A stretch of DNA of 21,635 nucleotides from a virus, in IMG/VR virus record IMGVR_UViG_3300032240_000370, positions 1 through 21,635 of that record; one strand, given 5' to 3'. This document shows positions 2,923-11,521 of this stretch, piece after piece (positions within the stretch are counted from its first letter, which is position 1; every line of letters starts with the position of its first letter). The notes beneath the pieces are model-generated. The model did no database searches, was not told the origin of the DNA, and was given only the letters and a program-made list of their open reading frames with translations. The position numbers and the translations under genes were made by a program.

Positions 2923-3909
2923 ATGGCTCTTTTTATCCAATCCGGTAACGCTTTAGTTACTCGTGTAGCACAATGGGTAGGAGCTATTCCAGCCTCAATC
3001 GGCATAAATGCCACAGCTTTTAATTCCTCAACTGGCGTACTTACTGCAGCATCTTCTGTCGATGGAATTATTCTTCCTGGTGACTTTATTGGTCCTAGTG
3101 CTTTAAAGTCTTACACCACAGTTTTGGCTGTTTCTGGTACTTCCATTACAGTCAGTGACATTGAAAGCGTTTGGGCAGGTACAACATACCCAACAGCCAT
3201 ATTGAAGTTGCCAACTCAATCAACTTCCGAAATCATGTCTTCTATCCAGTTGTGCGAACTCAAGATGCGTACAATTGAACTTCCCGCTTTACGCTCAAAT
3301 CCTTATGGTGATACACCCGCAGTTTTGGTGACTGATGCCCAAGGCATGGCTCCAATCCCTGCGGACATGAACAAGCCAATCTTGTTCTTCCAAGAAACGC
3401 CTAATAGTTCTGTGCCACCAGGCACTCCTGCTGCTTCCATGGGCCCTTGGATCATTTATGACCGAGTTGGTGACCGAGAAATCATTCGCAGACGCATGAT
3501 TGACCAGTTATATGTGCGTCCATTTGGTGTGCCACGAGTTATTCGTGCTTCATTCTCTGAAGTTGGTCAAAAATATGTGTTTACGCCAAACCCTGGTGAA
3601 AACGTCAATATTAAAGCTTATTACCAACGCACATTCCCATTTTTGTTTGGGCCAACAGATGATGCATTGAATCCTATTGTTCAAAACAATGCTGCTTTGG
3701 CTTCATTCCCTGAAGGTTATTTGTATGGCACATTGTGGGCATACTACGACAAGAACAAGAATAACGAAGAAGCTCAAAAATGGAGCGCACGTTATGAAGA
3801 TGCATATGGTTTGATTGAAGATCAGAACTTTAAGGGCAAGTGGCTTGGTGGAGATCAACATCTCACATCCGAGTTCCAACCACGCAATTATCGTTACAGC
3901 TTCAAGTAA
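2923..3909 (+). CDS. Head-tail adaptor-like protein (SU10-adaptor type)
   Basis: The second half of this 328-residue protein (about 100-315) resembles the adaptor proteins of SU10-like and T7-like phages, which sit under the portal and connect head and tail. Visible signs are an early helix with IQLCELKMRTIELPAL, a PIPADMNKPILFF element like the LPxDF stretch of the family, a basic patch (DREIIRRRMI), a VFTPNPGENV strand, a KAYYQRTFPFL segment, and a C-terminal helical pair with FPEGYLYGTLWAYY and the KW..RYEDAYGLI helix. Residues about 20-92 form an additional Thr/Ser/Val-rich beta region ahead of the adaptor helices, which may be an extra domain. AAGGA precedes the ATG. The position just after the capsid genes agrees. 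It could instead be a tail tubular or gatekeeper-like protein; I favour adaptor. Confidence 0.6.
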   Translation: MALFIQSGNALVTRVAQWVGAIPASIGINATAFNSSTGVLTAASSVDGIILPGDFIGPSALKSYTTVLAVSGTSITVSDIESVWAGTTYPTAILKLPTQSTSEIMSSIQLCELKMRTIELPALRSNPYGDTPAVLVTDAQGMAPIPADMNKPILFFQETPNSSVPPGTPAASMGPWIIYDRVGDREIIRRRMIDQLYVRPFGVPRVIRASFSEVGQKYVFTPNPGENVNIKAYYQRTFPFLFGPTDDALNPIVQNNAALASFPEGYLYGTLWAYYDKNKNNEEAQKWSARYEDAYGLIEDQNFKGKWLGGDQHLTSEFQPRNYRYSFK

Positions 3910-3918
3910 GGAAAATTT

Positions 3919-5538
3919 ATGGCTACAAGCGGTCTTTACGGAAGCAGTCCTACAGGCGGGTTGGTTGCGGCTCCTGGTGCTGAGTCAGCAGGTTTGTATG
4001 GTAACTCTACAAACTTTGGCGGCACATATTTTGAGTGGTTTGTTTTTCAAGAATCAGCCACTGCGCCAGCAACCCCAACAGGCGGTTCATGGAACTTTCT
4101 GACCAACACTGGAACACCTCCAACAGGTTGGACAACTGCACCTCCTACAAACCCAACAAATACTGTTTGGTTTTCTATTTCGATTGTCAACAGTCGTAAT
4201 AATGCGGCATTGGTTTGGACAACACCTGCGCCTTTGATTAAGTCTGGACCCACCGGACCTACAGGCAGTGTTGGACCTACAGGCAGTGCAGGACCTACGG
4301 GCGCAGCCGGACCCACAGGAAGTTCAGGACCTACTGGAAGCGCAGGGCCTACAGGCGCAGCAGGTGCGGCAGGACCCACAGGCCCCACTGGAAATGTTGG
4401 ACCCACAGGAAGTATTGGCAATACAGGACCCACAGGTCCTACCGGAGCCGCATCCACAGTAGCCGGACCTACAGGTGCAGCGGGACCCACCGGACCCACA
4501 GGAGCAACTGGAGCCGCATCAAGTGTTGCCGGACCAACCGGACCCACGGGCACACAGGGAAATGCTGGACCAACAGGCCCCACAGGAAGTACTGGAGCGG
4601 CTTCTACAGTGCCAGGTCCCACAGGCCCCACAGGCAGTGTTGGAAGCTCAGGACCCACGGGTCCCACAGGCGGTGTCGGACCTACAGGTCCTGGTGGTGC
4701 TTTGGCTTATTGGGGTTCTTTTTGGGACACAACAACTCAAACTGCTGCTTCAATTAATACCCCATATTTAATTACGCTAAATAGCTACGATACTGCAAAC
4801 AATGGCATTTCTGTTGTTTCTGGCAGCCGAGTAACTTTTGCAAATGCGGGTGTTTATAGCCTAACATTTTCAATTCAATTTACAAATCACAGTACAGCAT
4901 TAGGAAACACACAAGTTTGGTTGCGTAAAAATGGAACTGATTTATCAGATACCAATTCGCATTACGATGTTCCTGACAAACAAGGAAGTTCATATTCTTC
5001 ACAAGTTTTAACAGTTAATTTTGCATTTCAAATTGCCGCATCGGATTACATTGAATTAGTTTGGGAAACAGCAAATACAAATGTTTATATAGAAACATTG
5101 TCGGCAGGAAGTAATTATCCAAGAACACCAGGTGTTATTTTTACTGCCACTCAAGTGATGTATACCAACCTTGGACCCACAGGTCCTACTGGAAGTGCAG
5201 GAAGTGCAGGAACTACGGGACCCACAGGCCCCACCGGAAGTGCAGGAACAAACGGACCCACTGGCCCGACAGGTGCTAACTCTACAGTTGCAGGACCTAC
5301 AGGCCCCACAGGTGCAAACGGAACAAATGGAGCCGCAGGACCTACAGGTCCCACTGGAGCAAATGGAACTGCCGGAAGTGTTGGACCAACAGGCCCGACT
5401 GGAACAAACGGAACTGCGGGACCCACGGGACCTACAGGTGCGGCATCAACTGTTGCCGGACCCACAGGTCCTACTGGAAGTGCGGGACCTACAGGTAGTG
5501 CAGGTGCGGGTAATGCTTACGCATGGTTTATAGTTTAA
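3919..5538 (+). CDS. Collagen-like tail fibre with jelly-roll insert
   Basis: This 539-residue protein is a fibrous virion protein, probably a side fibre or head fibre for adhesion. Residues 1-40 are Gly/Ser-rich. Residues about 41-105 form a small module with PATPTGG, GWTTAPP and a VWFSISIV strand, also found in the fibre gene at 11521-13242. Residues 110-260 are collagen-like Gly-X-Y, mostly Gly-Pro-Thr. Residues about 261-413 form a beta domain resembling C1q/TNF jelly rolls ([30 protein letters not shown]). A second Gly-Pro-Thr block spans 419-530, and the protein ends in NAYAWFIV. Such proteins form trimers through collagen triple helices capped by a jelly-roll trimer. Five short interruptions of the A-(A/N)-S-(T/S)-V type break the triplet phase. 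Neighbouring genes are also adhesins. Confidence 0.85.
4246..4698 (+). repeat. Collagen-like Gly-Pro-Thr repeat block 1
   Basis: About 150 residues of Gly-X-Y triplets with about two dozen Gly-Pro-Thr units, often paired (GPTGPTG) and alternating with SVG, SAG or AAG. At DNA level the unit is a degenerate 9-mer such as GGACCCACA, with many synonymous variants (GGACCTACA, GGACCAACA, GGCCCCACA), so the repeats are not identical copies. Three phase-breaking hinges (AASTVA, AASSVA, AASTVP) lie at residues 177, 199 and 227. Confidence 0.9.
5173..5508 (+). repeat. Collagen-like Gly-Pro-Thr repeat block 2
   Basis: About 112 residues of Gly-X-Y triplets after the jelly-roll domain. Units are GPTGPTG pairs separated by triplets rich in Asn, Thr, Ala and Ser (GANGTNGAAG type), giving more Asn than block 1. 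Two hinges (ANSTVA at 453 and AASTVA at 508) match those in block 1. The DNA units are synonymous variants of the same 9-mer. Confidence 0.9.
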
Positions 5539-5547
5539 GAGGTATAT

Positions 5548-6369
5548 ATGTCAACTCTAGTCCTTGATTCAACACTAAAAACCATTAAGGTTTCAATGTC
5601 GGGTGCTGCGGCAACGACTAATCCAGACTTTACTGTTTCTTATGCAGATAATAATGGAACTACTTTTACTGAAGGTGCTTCTGATGGTGCTTTAACAGGT
5701 GCAACAGATGCAACTGTAGTATCAGCTCCTGCAAGTGGTTATCGCAGAATTATTAAAAAGATTTTCATTGAAAACAAAGATACTGCCGCAGTAACAATTA
5801 CTGTTAAGTATGACAACAATGGAACTCAAAGAAACATTGTTAAAGTAACTCTTAATGTTGGAGATACTTGGTCAACTGATGGCACATTTGATACTTATGG
5901 TGCTTTAAAACAAACATTAGGTACTGTTAATCTTTCAAGTGTTACTGGAACATTGGCTGTAGCTAATGGTGGTACTGGAGTTACAACTTCTACTGGCACA
6001 GGATCAGTAGTATTGTCATCATCACCAACATTGACAAATCCAACTGTTACAAACTATGTAGAAACCGCATACACAGCAAATAGTTCAACTGCTATTACTT
6101 TGGCATTGACTAACGGCACAGTACAAATCATTACCTTGACAGGCAATGCAACAATTACCATGCCTACTGCTGGCGCAGGTAAATCATTTATTTTGTTGTT
6201 ACGCCAAGATGCTACTGGCTCACGCACAGTTACTTGGTCAACAGTCAATTGGGCTGGCGGTACTGCACCTACCGTTACTAGCACCGCAAGCAAACAAGAC
6301 ATTTATTCTTTCTTTAGCGATGGCACATCTTGGTATGGTGTAACTGTTGGACAGAACTACACACAATAA
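5548..6369 (+). CDS. Tail fibre protein with NGGTGVTT linker
   Basis: This 273-residue protein is a virion fibre or adhesin component. Residues 1-115 form a Thr/Asp-rich beta region that may be the attachment part. Residues about 138-165 hold the widespread phage-fibre linker NGGTGVTTSTGTGSVVLS followed by SSPTLTNPTV, which in many fibres separates the shaft from the C-terminal domain. Residues about 180-273 are a small beta domain with TLTGNATITMP, GKSFILLLRQD, VTWSTVNWAGG and a SDGTSWYGVTVG ending, a C-terminal pattern I associate with phage fibres. There is no signal peptide or membrane segment. It lies 9 nt after the collagen-like fibre with GAGG before the start, and is probably made together with it. 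The receptor is unknown. Confidence 0.75.
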   Translation: MSTLVLDSTLKTIKVSMSGAAATTNPDFTVSYADNNGTTFTEGASDGALTGATDATVVSAPASGYRRIIKKIFIENKDTAAVTITVKYDNNGTQRNIVKVTLNVGDTWSTDGTFDTYGALKQTLGTVNLSSVTGTLAVANGGTGVTTSTGTGSVVLSSSPTLTNPTVTNYVETAYTANSSTAITLALTNGTVQIITLTGNATITMPTAGAGKSFILLLRQDATGSRTVTWSTVNWAGGTAPTVTSTASKQDIYSFFSDGTSWYGVTVGQNYTQ

Positions 6370-6378
6370 GGAATAGTA

Positions 6379-8361
6379 ATGTTTGCTGCATCCAAAACAT
6401 CAGCACCATCAGGCGGCCCTAAGGACGCACAGTTTAATTACGTCACTATGCTTTTGCATGGTGATGGTACTAATGGCGCACAAAACAATACGTTTGTAGA
6501 TGGCAGCATCAATAACTACAGTATTACCCGTAACGGCAATACAACCCAAGGTTCTTTTTCGCCTTATGGGTCTAATTGGTCTAATTACATTGGTTCTGGA
6601 AATAAACTTGATGGGCCAACAAATGCAGCGTTTGCTTTTGGTACTGGCGACTTTACAATCAGCGCATGGGTGTTTATTGCAGATGGAACATCATCACAAA
6701 TTATTTGGACAAACCAGACAACAAGTTCCGCAAATGCACCAAACCTTGTTTTTTTTATTTTAAACAACAATGTTTGTATTGCTAACACCAATACAGCTCA
6801 TGTTCCATCAAGCGGAACTATTGCAAACAATACATGGAATTATGTCGGTGTAACAAGGTCATCAGGAACATATACTTTTTACATCAATGGTTCCACATCG
6901 GGAACAACATCAAGCATTGGAACTGACAACATTACAGAGAATGCTTGTCATATTGGTTATGGTAACTATGGAAGTAGTTATTATTTTGGTGGATACATTT
7001 CCAACTTAAGAGTAATTAAGGGTTCTGCCGTAACCCCTACAGTACCAACAACACCATTAACTGCTATATCAGGCACAAGCCTTTTAACTTGTCAATCTAA
7101 CCGATATATTGATAACAGCAGTAACGCATTTACCATTACTACAACAGGCACACCAAGCGTTCAACGCTTCAACCCATTTGGTACTTCTACCGCCTACTCC
7201 ACAAGCGTGATTGGTGGGTCAGGGTATTTCGATGGCACTGGTGACAATTTAACTGCGTCAACAAACATTTCTTTAAGTGGTAATTTTTGTATTGAAGCAT
7301 GGTTTAAAACAACAACTACAACAACCTATGCTTGTATTTTTTCAGATGAAAGCGTAAGTAATGGAACAACAATTCTTTTGAATAATGGTTCAAACAATGG
7401 ACAAATTACTGTTTATTCAAAAAATATTGTTACAAATTTTGCATCTACTGTAACGGGTTTAAATAACAACGCATGGCATCATGTTGCTTTTACTAGAAGT
7501 GGCTCTACTTGTTATTTGTTTGTAGACGGAGTTCAGCAAAATACAACTACTGGTTCTGGAACTTCAACAGGAAGCACAGCGTTAATTGGCACAAGTTTTT
7601 TTGCTTCTCGTGATTTTTTAGGATATATCAGCGACTTTAGGTTTGTTACTGGTTCTGCCGTTTACACATCTGCATTTACTCCACCAACAACACCGTTAAC
7701 CGCAATTAGCGGAACACAACTTTTGTTGTCAATGCAAAATGGCGCAATCTACGACAACGCCATGATAAACAATTTAGAAACTGTAGGTAATGCACAGATT
7801 TCTACAAGCGTTAAAAAGTTTGGAACAGGGTCTTTGTATTTTGATGGGACAGGGGATTATTTAACATTAACAAATTTAAATGCGTTTACTTTAACAACGG
7901 GAAATTGGACAATTGAAGGATGGGTAAACCCAACAACAATTAGTGGTTCTGCCGCTTCAAATACTATTTTTGCTAACGGCTATCCCGTGCAAATTTATGT
8001 ACAAAATAATAATGTAGCCATGTATGTTTCTTCTACAAATACATCAGGTACATATTTTGTAAACCCCGCTTTAGGCCCAACAAGTTCATTATCAACAAAT
8101 GTTTGGTCGCATTTTGCTTGTGTTAAAAATGGCAACAATTACACAGTTTATGTAAATGGTGTTGCGGGAACAACTGTAACTTCATCAACTGCACCAGCCG
8201 CACCAAACACCACAACTGCAATGAATGTTGGTTCTTGGAATAATACCAATGCTTACTATACGGGATACATTGATGATTTACGAATCACTAATGGTTATGC
8301 ACGATATACAAGCAACTTTACCGCACCAACAGCAGCATTCTCTAATACTGGCCCAATTTAA
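6379..8361 (+). CDS. Triple LamG/concanavalin-like adhesin
   Basis: This 660-residue protein carries three laminin-G/concanavalin A-like lectin domains. Each has the family pattern of a FDGTGD strand, an (I)EAW or (I)SAWV core strand, a W..V/W.H.A..R strand, a Y.FYING or VNG turn, and a GYISDLR ending. They lie at about residues 80-215, 280-425 and 485-640. The two linkers share PTTPLTAISGT and an LL motif, so the protein grew by tandem duplication of a domain plus linker. The N-terminal 60 residues (LLHGDGTNG, NNYSITRNGN) form a partial version of the same fold or a virion-anchor segment. LamG folds usually bind sugars or glycans, so this is likely the receptor-binding protein for surface polysaccharide. 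The three domains have diverged strongly at DNA level. No catalytic site was seen. Confidence 0.8.
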   Translation: MFAASKTSAPSGGPKDAQFNYVTMLLHGDGTNGAQNNTFVDGSINNYSITRNGNTTQGSFSPYGSNWSNYIGSGNKLDGPTNAAFAFGTGDFTISAWVFIADGTSSQIIWTNQTTSSANAPNLVFFILNNNVCIANTNTAHVPSSGTIANNTWNYVGVTRSSGTYTFYINGSTSGTTSSIGTDNITENACHIGYGNYGSSYYFGGYISNLRVIKGSAVTPTVPTTPLTAISGTSLLTCQSNRYIDNSSNAFTITTTGTPSVQRFNPFGTSTAYSTSVIGGSGYFDGTGDNLTASTNISLSGNFCIEAWFKTTTTTTYACIFSDESVSNGTTILLNNGSNNGQITVYSKNIVTNFASTVTGLNNNAWHHVAFTRSGSTCYLFVDGVQQNTTTGSGTSTGSTALIGTSFFASRDFLGYISDFRFVTGSAVYTSAFTPPTTPLTAISGTQLLLSMQNGAIYDNAMINNLETVGNAQISTSVKKFGTGSLYFDGTGDYLTLTNLNAFTLTTGNWTIEGWVNPTTISGSAASNTIFANGYPVQIYVQNNNVAMYVSSTNTSGTYFVNPALGPTSSLSTNVWSHFACVKNGNNYTVYVNGVAGTTVTSSTAPAAPNTTTAMNVGSWNNTNAYYTGYIDDLRITNGYARYTSNFTAPTAAFSNTGPI

Positions 8362-8370
8362 GGAAGCATC

Positions 8371-8829
8371 ATGCAAATTGCAATTTTGACAAATCCAATC
8401 ACAGTAGGCGATTACCGCGAACTGTTTGCTAATACATCATTTCCACCAAGTGGTCCAAGTGATGAATTCTTGGCAGCCAATAACGCAAAGAAGGTCAATG
8501 CTTTCAAAACGCACAATAGCCTCACCCAGAAGCTAGTGTCATGCTCTGCTTATGACGATGGCGAGTTTGTTTGTGTTGTCCAAGTGGCAAACATGAGTGC
8601 TGAAGAAATCCAAGCAGCCAAAAACTCTGCAATGGCACAATTGAGAACCACTCGAAATGCTTTGTTGACTGCTTGCGACTGGACTCAAATTGCTGACTGC
8701 TCTATTCCTAAAAAGGCAGAGTGGGCAACATACCGCCAGACATTGCGTGACTTTCCTGCAACTGTGTCTGATGCACGAGAAACTATCAATTGGCCTCATA
8801 ATCCTGATTGGGTTGAGCCAACAATTTAA
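8371..8829 (+). CDS. Tail/fibre assembly chaperone-like protein (Phage_tail_APC type)
   Basis: This 152-residue protein ends in a domain (about 83-146) that matches the Phage_tail_APC family as I recall it: R.TRN.LLTACDWTQIADC, then EWATYRQTLRDFPATV and WPHNPDW. The N-terminal 75 residues form a separate domain starting MQIAILTNPITVGDYREL. Proteins with this C-terminal domain occur next to phage tail fibre genes, and some are thought to help fibres fold or assemble. It follows the LamG adhesin by 9 nt with AAGGAAG before the ATG. This gene is likely the chaperone or a structural partner for one of the three preceding fibres. It is soluble and has no membrane segment. Confidence 0.7.
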   Translation: MQIAILTNPITVGDYRELFANTSFPPSGPSDEFLAANNAKKVNAFKTHNSLTQKLVSCSAYDDGEFVCVVQVANMSAEEIQAAKNSAMAQLRTTRNALLTACDWTQIADCSIPKKAEWATYRQTLRDFPATVSDARETINWPHNPDWVEPTI

Positions 8830-8849
8830 TTGTATAGATTGGAATAGCA

Positions 8850-9905
8850 ATGAAAATAGCCGTGTACGCAATCAGTAAAAATGAAGAACAATTTGTTCAG
8901 CGTTTTTGTGATTCAGCCAAAGATGCAGACCTGATCTTGATTGCCGACACAGGCTCTACTGACAAAACAGTTGAATATGCTTTGGAATGTGGCGCAAAAG
9001 TCCACGATATATGTATCAGCCCATGGCGATTTGATAAAGCTCGGGATGCTGCCCTAGCTCTAATCCCAAGAGACTTTGATGTCTGTATTAGCCTAGACTT
9101 GGATGAAGTTATGGAACCAGGCTGGCGGGAAGAAATTGAGCGGGTTTGGCAGGAAAACACCACTAGGTTGCGCTACAAGTTTGATTGGGGATGTGGAATC
9201 TCCTTTTTTTACGAGAAAATCCACCACCGCCATGGGTATCACTGGCATCATCCAGTCCATGAATATCCTCGTCCTGATGGCAGAACGCAGGAAATCTATG
9301 CCCATACGGATATGCTTTTGGTCAGCCATCACCCTGATCCTACCAAATCCCGTGGTCAATATATGCCACTGCTTGAGTTGGCTATTAAAGAAGACCCACA
9401 TTGCCCTAGAAACGCTTTTTATCATGCCCGAGAACTCACCTTCTATTCTCGTTGGCAAGAGGCTATAGAGGCTTTAAATCGCTATTTAGCCATGCCTGAG
9501 GCTACTTGGCCTAACGAGCGATGCTATGCCATGCGTTTATTGGGTAAAGCACATGAAGAATTAGGCATGGTTCACGAGGGTTTGAAATGGTACAGACTGG
9601 CTTGTGCAGAAGCCCCCAATACCCGAGAGCCATGGTGCGAGTTGGCGGTGGCAACCTACAGATTAAGTATGTGGCCTGAGAGCTATGGAGCGTCACTTTC
9701 AGCCCTGAATATCACTGACAGACAGTTGGTTTACACCTGTGACCCAAGCGTTTGGACTGAAAAACCATACGATTACGCCAGTATTGCCGCTTGGAGGCTT
9801 GGATTAAAAGATCAGGCTATCGAATTCTGTAAGAAAGCTTTAGAATTTAACCCTACAGACACCCGTCTATTGACCAATCTCCAGCAGATGGAAGAAGTGA
9901 CATGA
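8850..9905 (+). CDS. Family 2 glycosyltransferase with TPR tail
   Basis: This 351-residue enzyme should transfer a sugar from a nucleotide-sugar donor. The N-terminal GT-A domain (about 1-165) has the GT2 start AVYAISKNEEQFV, the DTGSTDKT motif (33-40) for nucleotide binding, and the metal-binding D-x-D inside SLDLDEVM (D83, D85). An unusual HHRHGYHWHHPVHEYP stretch (about 125-140) lies where the acceptor side is expected. Residues about 187-345 form TPR-like helical repeats (EAIEALNRYL, GKAHEELGMVHEGLKWYRLA, KDQAIEFCKKALEFNP), as in other GT2-TPR proteins that modify proteins. It has no membrane segment, so acts in the cytoplasm. It overlaps the next tail gene by four bases (ATGA), implying co-translation. 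A virion protein is a plausible substrate. Host surface glycan modification is the main alternative. Confidence 0.85.
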   Translation: MKIAVYAISKNEEQFVQRFCDSAKDADLILIADTGSTDKTVEYALECGAKVHDICISPWRFDKARDAALALIPRDFDVCISLDLDEVMEPGWREEIERVWQENTTRLRYKFDWGCGISFFYEKIHHRHGYHWHHPVHEYPRPDGRTQEIYAHTDMLLVSHHPDPTKSRGQYMPLLELAIKEDPHCPRNAFYHARELTFYSRWQEAIEALNRYLAMPEATWPNERCYAMRLLGKAHEELGMVHEGLKWYRLACAEAPNTREPWCELAVATYRLSMWPESYGASLSALNITDRQLVYTCDPSVWTEKPYDYASIAAWRLGLKDQAIEFCKKALEFNPTDTRLLTNLQQMEEVT

Positions 9906-11521
9906 GCGACTATACCCGCCTCCGTACTCCGTTTACCAACATGAGCTTCACGCCCGATGTGCCAAGCAATGCTTTGGGTCCAAATGAGTACAACTTGGGT
10001 AAAAATATTGAGGCTGATGTTCGTTCTATCAAGAAAATCTTTGGTGAAAAGGAAATTGCTTCCACAATCACTGATACGCCTATCTTTATGGAAGGTGGGT
10101 TTCGTTCTGAAACCTCTTGGGTTTACATAGTTGCCACTCGTAATTCATCCAATCAAGGCAAATGGTGGATGATTACTGCTACTGGCATTTCCAATATCAC
10201 GCCTGGTGTGGGTGCAAATCCTTCAGTTTATCTGTCTGGCTATACAGAAGACTTAAATATTACTTTTTCATGGGTTGGTAATGTCTTCTTTATGAATGAC
10301 ACAATTAGCAATCCTATGTATTTCTTGCCGACAAGCAATGAAATCACAGTAACGTCTAATGCTTCATGGAACTATGATGTTGGCGTAACATCTACTCGGG
10401 CAGGATTTGTTAGAAACTACTGCTCACCCAATGTTGGCAATATTCTGATTGCAGGTAATCTGACCAAAGATATTGGTGGAACACTGTATAACTACCCAAC
10501 AACAGTCCGTTGGTCACAGGCTTTTGCTAATCAAGGTTACCCTGCGACATGGGAACCAACCCTATCTAACGTGGCTAACGAACAAGAAGTGCCAGTCCGT
10601 GGTCCTTTGATTGATGGATTTTTCCTTGGTGGCAACTTTTATGTGTGTAGCTATTGGGATACAGTAGTTTTCTCTCCCATTTCCTATCAAAACAGCACTG
10701 CTCCTATTTTTGGTGTGCGTCTTTTGAATCAAGGCCGTGGACTGTTTAACAATAATTGTTGGACAAATACTGATGCTAATGTTTACGGCATTGATGCTCG
10801 TGATATCTGGGTGTTTAATGGCTCAGAATTCTCGTCATTGGGCAACCAGAAAGTTAAAGATTACTTTTTTGCCAATTTGAATCCTTTGTATTCTCAGCGT
10901 ATGTTCATGGTGAACAACACGCAGAAATATCAAATTGAGATTTACTATCCCGATCTGACATCGACTGGTTGGTGCAACAAGATGCTGTCATACCGCTATG
11001 ACCTTCAAGTCTGGAATGCTCCTAAAGATATTGCCAATGCAGTTATGGGCACTGAAGGTCCTCGTTGGATAGATAGCTCACCAGATTACTTTAACCTGTC
11101 TTCTAGAGCTGTTGTCTATGCTCGTGCATTAAGTACCTCTAAGTTAATTGAAACCAACATTGGTAATTCTTTTATCAATTCAGGCGCAATTGATTCTCAG
11201 TTTGAGCGTACCAATATTGCCTTGCAAACTGCAAATGGTCCTGTGCCTTATTCATCTAAAGTTTACATTCATAGAATCTTGCCTGAGATGGCGGGTACTG
11301 GAAAAATTGATGTGACTATTGGTGGTGCTAATTCAACTCAGCAGACACCTACATATGGTCAGACAGGTTCAGTAATTATTGACACTGACAATCCATGGGT
11401 GACAACTCAGCAAAATTCTGTGCGTACAGTAGCAGTTAAGTTTGGTTCAAACGATGCAACAGACACATGGAAAGTAAGTGCTTTGAACTTGCAAGCAACA
11501 GTAACTGAGGATGCGTTCTAA
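9902..11521 (+). CDS. Beta-propeller-like tail protein (P22 gp10 / T7 gp12 type)
   Basis: This 539-residue protein is all-beta by inspection, with repeated short aromatic/Gly strands and hairpins that suggest a propeller. Examples are TSWVYIVATR, NITFSWVGNVFFMND, GNILIAGN, TVRWSQAF, GFFLGGNFYVCSYWDTVVF and GIDARDIWVFNGSEF (about residues 72-310). The pattern of 'write a site, then ask what is displayed there' (RWS..., G.F.GG, ...WVFNG) resembles P22 gp10-like and T7 gp12-like tail tube or nozzle proteins, which form the tail's lower tube. The C-terminal third (about 400-539) is another Ser/Thr-rich beta domain. The ATG overlaps the glycosyltransferase stop and the stop overlaps the next ATG (TAATG). 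A missing tape-measure gene fits a short tail. The family is uncertain but a tail role is well supported by context. Confidence 0.6.
   Translation: MSDYTRLRTPFTNMSFTPDVPSNALGPNEYNLGKNIEADVRSIKKIFGEKEIASTITDTPIFMEGGFRSETSWVYIVATRNSSNQGKWWMITATGISNITPGVGANPSVYLSGYTEDLNITFSWVGNVFFMNDTISNPMYFLPTSNEITVTSNASWNYDVGVTSTRAGFVRNYCSPNVGNILIAGNLTKDIGGTLYNYPTTVRWSQAFANQGYPATWEPTLSNVANEQEVPVRGPLIDGFFLGGNFYVCSYWDTVVFSPISYQNSTAPIFGVRLLNQGRGLFNNNCWTNTDANVYGIDARDIWVFNGSEFSSLGNQKVKDYFFANLNPLYSQRMFMVNNTQKYQIEIYYPDLTSTGWCNKMLSYRYDLQVWNAPKDIANAVMGTEGPRWIDSSPDYFNLSSRAVVYARALSTSKLIETNIGNSFINSGAIDSQFERTNIALQTANGPVPYSSKVYIHRILPEMAGTGKIDVTIGGANSTQQTPTYGQTGSVIIDTDNPWVTTQQNSVRTVAVKFGSNDATDTWKVSALNLQATVTEDAF

Follow-up and report, generated by a model that had tools for sequence, protein, structure and literature searches.

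A TPR-bearing phage glycosyltransferase that tracks collagen-like tail fibres and probably modifies them

The glycosyltransferase (GT) encoded at positions 8850..9905 of the window, which is the whole stretch of 21,635 bases of a virus record analysed here, is very likely a polypeptide O-glycosyltransferase, soluble and located in the cytoplasm, whose dedicated substrate is the collagen-like tail fibre of the phage itself. This assignment is made because the enzyme combines its GT2-TPR architecture and intact motifs with a predicted peptide-GT fold, because it recurrently co-occurs with GPT-collagen, and because it is homologous to bacterial enzymes encoded beside BclA-like collagen. The link between enzyme and fibre, which the earlier note had drawn as an inference, is supported by comparisons among sister phages, among more distant GT clades and with Clostridiaceae. 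It is also reasonably probable that a widespread phage collagen-modification system exists, in which a dedicated GT2-TPR enzyme puts an O-linked sugar on Gly-Pro-Thr fibres, is gained and lost with the shaft in unrelated lineages, and is homologous to clostridial spore-collagen glycosylation.

The enzyme and the fibre in the window

The window carries genes for an SU10-type major capsid protein and adaptor, fibre genes, conserved virion genes, a lysozyme gene and a metallophosphoesterase gene, in this order. No PADLOC match was found in it that would favour a defence-system reading. The features described below lie on the plus strand unless stated otherwise. The adaptor gene (2923..3909; PF24175, E 2.4e-10) is followed by that of the collagen-like tail fibre of 539 aa, the proposed substrate (3919..5538; Pfam Collagen, E 1.5e-27; PHROG tail fibre). 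The fibre gene lies 3.3 kb upstream of the GT gene in the same direction, with three genes in between. As described in the earlier note, the GT gene is situated inside the tail genes and overlaps a structural tail gene by four bases: the ATGA at 9902..9905 contains the GT stop codon (TGA, 9903-9905) and the start codon (ATG, 9902) of a conserved virion structural gene (9902..11521; PHROG 3287 virion structural protein, E 1.5e-33). That description is refined in one respect, in that the gene adjoining the GT gene on its 5' side (8371..8829; PF16778, E 4.8e-17) encodes a tail fibre assembly chaperone and not a fibre.

The GT ORF starts with ATG and encodes 351 aa, and its assignment draws on Pfam, PHROG, motifs, an AlphaFold2 model and the SunS/ThuS folds. 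Pfam Glycos_transf_2 matched residues 8-104 (28.5 bits, cut-off 23.3), TPR_14, TPR_1, TPR_2 and TPR_8 exceeded their Pfam cut-offs in the C-terminal half, and PHROG 13126 matched the protein from end to end (residues 1-349, E 3.8e-100), so that it is a full-length member of that family. In the AlphaFold2 model, built with 71 relatives (pLDDT 96, pTM 0.89), a GT-A catalytic domain (residues ~1-165, 8850-9344) is followed by a helical TPR solenoid (residues ~168-349, 9351-9896). The DTGSTDKT motif (residues 33-40, 8946..8969) corresponds to the nucleotide-sugar site of GT-A enzymes, and the D-x-D-E motif (residues 83-86, D83-L84-D85 and E86; 9096..9107) to the metal/UDP-sugar site. By the Pfam match, the D-x-D and nucleotide-sugar motifs and the predicted GT-A fold, the protein is a GT2-type GT-A enzyme, and the earlier note's description of a GT2 enzyme with D-x-D, DTGSTDKT and a TPR tail thus holds. 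No variation was seen at D33, T34, G35, S36, D38, D83, D85 and E86 among 71 diverse relatives, with identities as low as 36%, and the enzyme is therefore very probably active.

GmaR of Listeria, a flagellin O-GlcNAc transferase, likewise joins a GT2 domain to TPRs, and its GT domain matched the window GT by sequence (E 8e-6). GmaR acts on flagellin and has a second role as the MogR antirepressor (PMC9638930), whereas the window GT is linked to a collagen fibre. This double role offers a precedent for a non-catalytic chaperone or regulator, whose TPRs would fold collagen-like chains while glycosyl transfer was lost or incidental (PMC9638930). The invariance of all of the GT-A motif residues predicts retained catalysis instead, and we regard a non-catalytic role as very improbable.

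The closest solved folds to the GT model were those of SunS and ThuS (Z 22-23, compared with Z 18 for the next family), and the similarity extends over the GT-A domain plus the helical domain; SunS (7msp_A) aligned over 264 residues with an rmsd of 2.5 and Z 23.2. SunS, which is prophage-derived, and ThuS are peptide S-glycosyltransferases acting on ribosomally made peptides. They differ from the window GT in that they modify small bacteriocin precursors and are 19% identical to it, and their family model TIGR04195 scored only 16.6 bits on the GT against a cut-off of 350. The label of PHROG 13126, 'beta-1,4-glycosyltransferase', implies a saccharide acceptor, whereas the evidence on the window GT favours a polypeptide acceptor.

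The fibre consists of an N-terminal anchor of ~108 aa (3919..4242), a Gly-Pro-Thr-rich collagen shaft (4243..4704), a TNF/C1q/BclA-like jelly-roll knob (4705..5154), a second Gly-Pro-Thr-rich collagen shaft (5167..5508) and a short tail. It contains 82 Gly-X-Y triplets in runs of at least six, of which 41 are GPT, in agreement with the GPT-rich fibre noted earlier upstream of the GT; Thr occupies the Y position in 45 triplets, out of 96 Thr in total. The minus strand over the collagen repeats carries long ORFs (4047-4667 and 5151-5465), which are a mirror effect of the GPT codons and not evidence of genes.

The knob was modelled by AlphaFold2 with a pLDDT of 96.8, and Foldseek matched it to the BclA C-terminal domain, BxpB, ExsFA and TNF-family ligands. 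A jelly-roll of the TNF/BclA type is the usual trimerising partner of collagen stalks. The fibre is thus BclA-like in its Gly-X-Y repeats and in the predicted TNF/C1q-like fold of its knob; Pfam BclA_C reached 18.1 bits on the fibre, below its cut-off of 38, and the predicted resemblance to BclA is one of fold, with no claim of family membership. The same knob was also seen in randomly picked viral contigs (L417:813-1238, L425:5442-5885 and L447:5299-5739). The records L417 and L425 had no collagen match, which indicates that non-collagen proteins also bear such a knob.

Co-occurrence of the enzyme and the collagen shaft in sister phages

The earlier note had proposed a gene-neighbourhood search for co-occurrence of this GT2-TPR with GPT-collagen fibres, and had held that an equal frequency of the enzyme in phages lacking collagen-like or Thr-rich fibres would speak against the link. 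Sister phages were fetched by the downstream structural gene regardless of the GT, and were supplemented with GT-selected loci and one annotated phage. Only loci that contained the adaptor gene as well were kept, which made the entire fibre block visible between the adaptor as left flank and the structural gene as right flank. After removal of duplicates, 45 distinct loci remained, 32 with the GT (GT+) and 13 without (GT-).

GPT-collagen was present in 32/32 GT+ and 0/13 GT- sister phages (Fisher p 1.4e-11). All 32 GT+ loci had 13-63 GP[T/S]G motifs in one fibre-block ORF, whereas 12 of the 13 GT- loci had none and the remaining one had 5; the cut-off of 9 motifs for collagen was set after a first look, and the two groups do not overlap. 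The GT state switches ~9 times on a tree built from the structural protein, and in 8/8 independent contrasts on supported branches the GT and collagen change together (sign test p 0.0078, the lowest value that 8 contrasts can give). In the closest pair, the structural genes of L031 (GT+) and L097 (GT-) are 93% identical in DNA; their fibres have the same anchor, joined to a GPT-collagen shaft in L031 and to a non-collagen shaft in L097. The co-occurrence that the earlier note asked about was therefore observed, and the equal frequency that would have counted against it was not. In L031, neighbouring fibre-block ORFs (5347-9983) share a glycine-rich 'VEYLVVAGGGGGG' start and are apparently duplicated tip proteins.

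The GT was not found anywhere in the 13 GT- records, 8 of which are ~40 kb long, by a whole-record search that detected 3/3 positive controls, and relocation of the GT elsewhere in these genomes was thereby ruled out. The anchor of the window fibre matched GT- fibres over ~103-108 aa with 55-81% identity. The Ser+Thr content of the fibres did not differ between GT+ and GT- loci (p 0.63), and Thr alone was modestly higher in GT+ loci (p 0.008). Since the anchor at the N-terminus and the overall Ser+Thr content are common to GT+ and GT- fibres, it is the collagen shaft that the GT tracks, and a link of the GT to Ser/Thr-rich fibres in general was rejected.

These comparisons bear on what else the enzyme might modify. 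Glycosylation of phage DNA against host nucleases has been proposed for the glycosyltransferases of freshwater actinophages (PMC10202952). For the window GT we consider such a role extremely improbable, since its fold is that of peptide glycosyltransferases. Moreover, we know of no reason why a DNA-modifying enzyme should track a collagen fibre.

Alternatively, the GT might glycosylate another protein of the fibre block, such as a laminin-G fibre, the downstream structural protein or a partner of the chaperone, and be linked to collagen via block swapping. The fibre block does recombine, so that part of the linkage could reflect co-transfer of neighbours. In the window, the GT gene adjoins a different virion gene and is separated from the fibre by three genes, which counts against a dedicated collagen enzyme, and the spacing to the downstream virion gene is -4 or +1 nt in 29/32 GT+ sister loci. 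Enrichment with the GT was likewise seen for the chaperone (18/32 GT+ and 1/13 GT- loci), an association weaker than that of collagen. However, a laminin-G fibre gene was present in only 4/32 GT+ loci (0/13 GT-), and the downstream structural gene and the adaptor were present in all of the GT- loci. The genes between collagen and the GT vary freely whereas both ends stay; in L136 the GT immediately follows the collagen gene and is remote from the structural gene; and the other GT clades, described below, keep only the collagen pairing. We consider another virion protein as the substrate quite unlikely.

Other phages and bacterial relatives

Among viral contigs chosen by a GPTGPTG DNA pattern, 19/80 had a strong match to PHROG 13126, compared with 0/50 records chosen by a GPQ pattern, which gave three weak matches. 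In 50 random viral records, picked by an arbitrary 14-mer, neither the PHROG 13126 GT (0/50) nor collagen (0/50) was found; these records are shorter on average, and both rates are only indicative. With the sister-phage test, these random controls led us to reject a chance neighbourhood of GT and fibre. Weaker GT2-TPR relatives were seen in three GPQGPQG-pattern phages (L526, L527 and L528; E about 1e-27 to 1e-32), which hints at another GT2-TPR subfamily.

Relatives of two divergent GTs were gathered by GT sequence as clades 2 and 3, whose seeds came from collagen-bearing contigs and therefore carry a mild ascertainment bias. Collagen was present in 24/24 clade 1 loci with at least 8 kb upstream, in 42/44 clade 2 loci (~36-41% identity) with at least 1.5 kb upstream, and in 37/40 clade 3 loci (~43-51% identity) with at least 5 kb upstream. 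In clade 2 the GT mostly starts 13 nt after the collagen stop codon, and Thr occupies 74% of the Y positions. Hits in annotated phages, found regardless of collagen, agree with this: two collagen genes lie 3-4 kb upstream of the GT in Actinomycetia phage DSL-LC01, and in a phage scaffold from human faeces the distance from collagen to the GT downstream of it is 11 nt.

For glycosyltransferases of freshwater and marine phages, a role in modifying LPS, teichoic acid or capsule on the host surface, by which superinfection would be blocked, has been proposed (PMC10202952, PMC7029224), and PHROG 13126 is filed under moron/host takeover. Such a role does not predict that the GT is lost whenever the fibre loses its collagen shaft, nor that in unrelated phages it follows a collagen gene at a distance of 13 nt. 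In the window, moreover, the GT gene lies within the virion structural block, and the best fold matches are to enzymes that glycosylate peptides and not to LPS enzymes. We consider a host-surface role quite improbable.

Among the GPT-pattern phages, the fraction of Thr at the Y position did not differ between those with and without the GT (p 0.52), whereas the GPT fraction was higher with the GT (p 0.002); in both comparisons the contigs without the GT may be fragments. Many GPT-collagen phage records, some of them fragments, lack this GT family, suggesting that another enzyme acts there or that the sugar is not always needed.

Distant GT2-TPR genes (24-37% identity) were also found in jumbo phages (PaBG, Lu11, HRDY3 and Alexandra-like phages, L552-L559), in a conserved order near DNA ligase and prohead protease genes; the collagen genes of PaBG, Lu11, Alexandra and others lie far from the GT. 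These phages were excluded as collagen-free counter-examples, since collagen above the Pfam cut-off is present in 8/8. Of the jumbo phages that lack the GT, 2/7 have collagen as well, and the 8 GT+ ones are close to one lineage, so that this co-occurrence weakly supports the link between GT and collagen.

In a scan of 84,980 species genomes, two relatives of the GT were found, both in Clostridiaceae and 41% and 39% identical to it. In both, a (GPT)n BclA-like gene begins 73-75 nt downstream, and we read its product as having a C-terminal region of the BclA type. In a third genome of the same bacterial order, the GT lies beside a BclA-like C-terminal fragment; one further contig of this order breaks off behind the GT, and another genome carries tandem GTs that have no collagen gene next to them. 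Both Clostridiaceae loci also contain a second, divergent GT2-TPR-like gene (L531:9012-9992 and L532:9006-9992), which shares 4 nt with the beginning of the SgtA-like gene.

The arrangement in Clostridiaceae is that of sgtA-bclA3 in C. difficile, where sgtA is directly upstream of bclA3 (PMC7157674). SgtA has a GT domain (aa 1-260) and four TPRs (aa 262-358), transfers beta-O-GlcNAc in vitro from UDP-GlcNAc onto Thr of BclA3 collagen-repeat peptides, and its gene inactivation abolishes the signal of glycosylated BclA3 from spores (PMC7157674). By this published architecture, SgtA is like the window GT in its length of ~350-360 aa, in the order of an N-terminal GT-A domain and C-terminal TPRs, and in its pairing with a collagen-like, Thr-triplet-rich protein. 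The earlier note had cited Bacillus BclA as the bacterial precedent; SgtA/BclA3 of C. difficile is a nearer precedent than Bacillus BclA (PMC7157674). The two systems differ in that SgtA/BclA3 belongs to the spore exosporium and the window pair to a phage tail fibre, and in that the window pair is split by three genes. A GT encoded with a Thr-triplet collagen is common to both; the two genes are direct neighbours in clade 2 and in Clostridiaceae, but not in the window.

Proposed modification of the fibre

During virion morphogenesis, the TPR arm or groove would hold the extended Gly-X-Y chain, before or during trimerisation, and the GT-A domain would move one sugar from a UDP-sugar to the Y-position Thr of Gly-Pro-Thr and similar triplets. 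Repetition of this transfer many times per chain would yield a densely glycosylated shaft. Both the glycosylation of the fibre and Y-position Thr as its acceptor sites are inferred. The likeliest donor, by analogy with SgtA, is UDP-GlcNAc, and UDP-Glc is possible by analogy with SunS.

A polymer of Gly-Pro-Thr folds only poorly into a triple helix when its Thr residues carry no sugar; the GT may therefore play the part in the phage that prolyl hydroxylation plays in animals, with the sugar perhaps standing in for hydroxyproline as the stabiliser of the viral triple helix. The benefit to the phage would most likely be a stabilised hydroxyproline-free triple helix, protease resistance or altered surface recognition; the earlier note had suggested a tunable surface or protection from proteases.

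In the literature covered, the roles given to phage glycosyltransferases are protection of DNA or exclusion of superinfecting phages (PMC10202952, PMC7029224), and glycosylation of virions is noted only for mycobacteriophages. These place glycans on their own virion proteins, and the glycans are described, in Freeman et al. 2023 as cited in PMC12619734, at the C-termini of capsid and tail tube proteins, not on collagen-like fibres. No report of a phage collagen glycosyltransferase or of a GT-collagen pairing in phages was found in a literature search that left subscription papers mostly outside, and priority is not established. The present results suggest that sugar-coating of collagen fibres by enzymes of viral origin is widespread, though it has so far escaped notice, and the GT-fibre pair would be a viral form of a known kind of enzyme-substrate pair. 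A family in freshwater phages, actinophages, possibly jumbo phages, and Clostridiaceae would thereby be tied to a definite protein substrate, in contrast to the usual assignments to DNA or the host surface. If correct, this would give a function to hundreds of phage genes, mean that phages encode their own machinery for post-translational modification of collagen, explain how hydroxyproline-free collagen fibres might be stabilised, and provide a compact two-gene system for producing glycosylated collagen. It would also bear on phage recognition and fibre evolution.

In DSL-LC01, a gene for a tryptophan-halogenase-like FAD enzyme (PF04820; L083:8433-10004) overlaps the start of the GT gene by 4 nt. 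As a recurrent partner of the GT, the halogenase was dropped, having been found at only two distinct loci; at the second (L534:7966-9468) a distant homologue (26%) likewise adjoins the GT, and this halogenase-like enzyme might be a second fibre-modifying enzyme.
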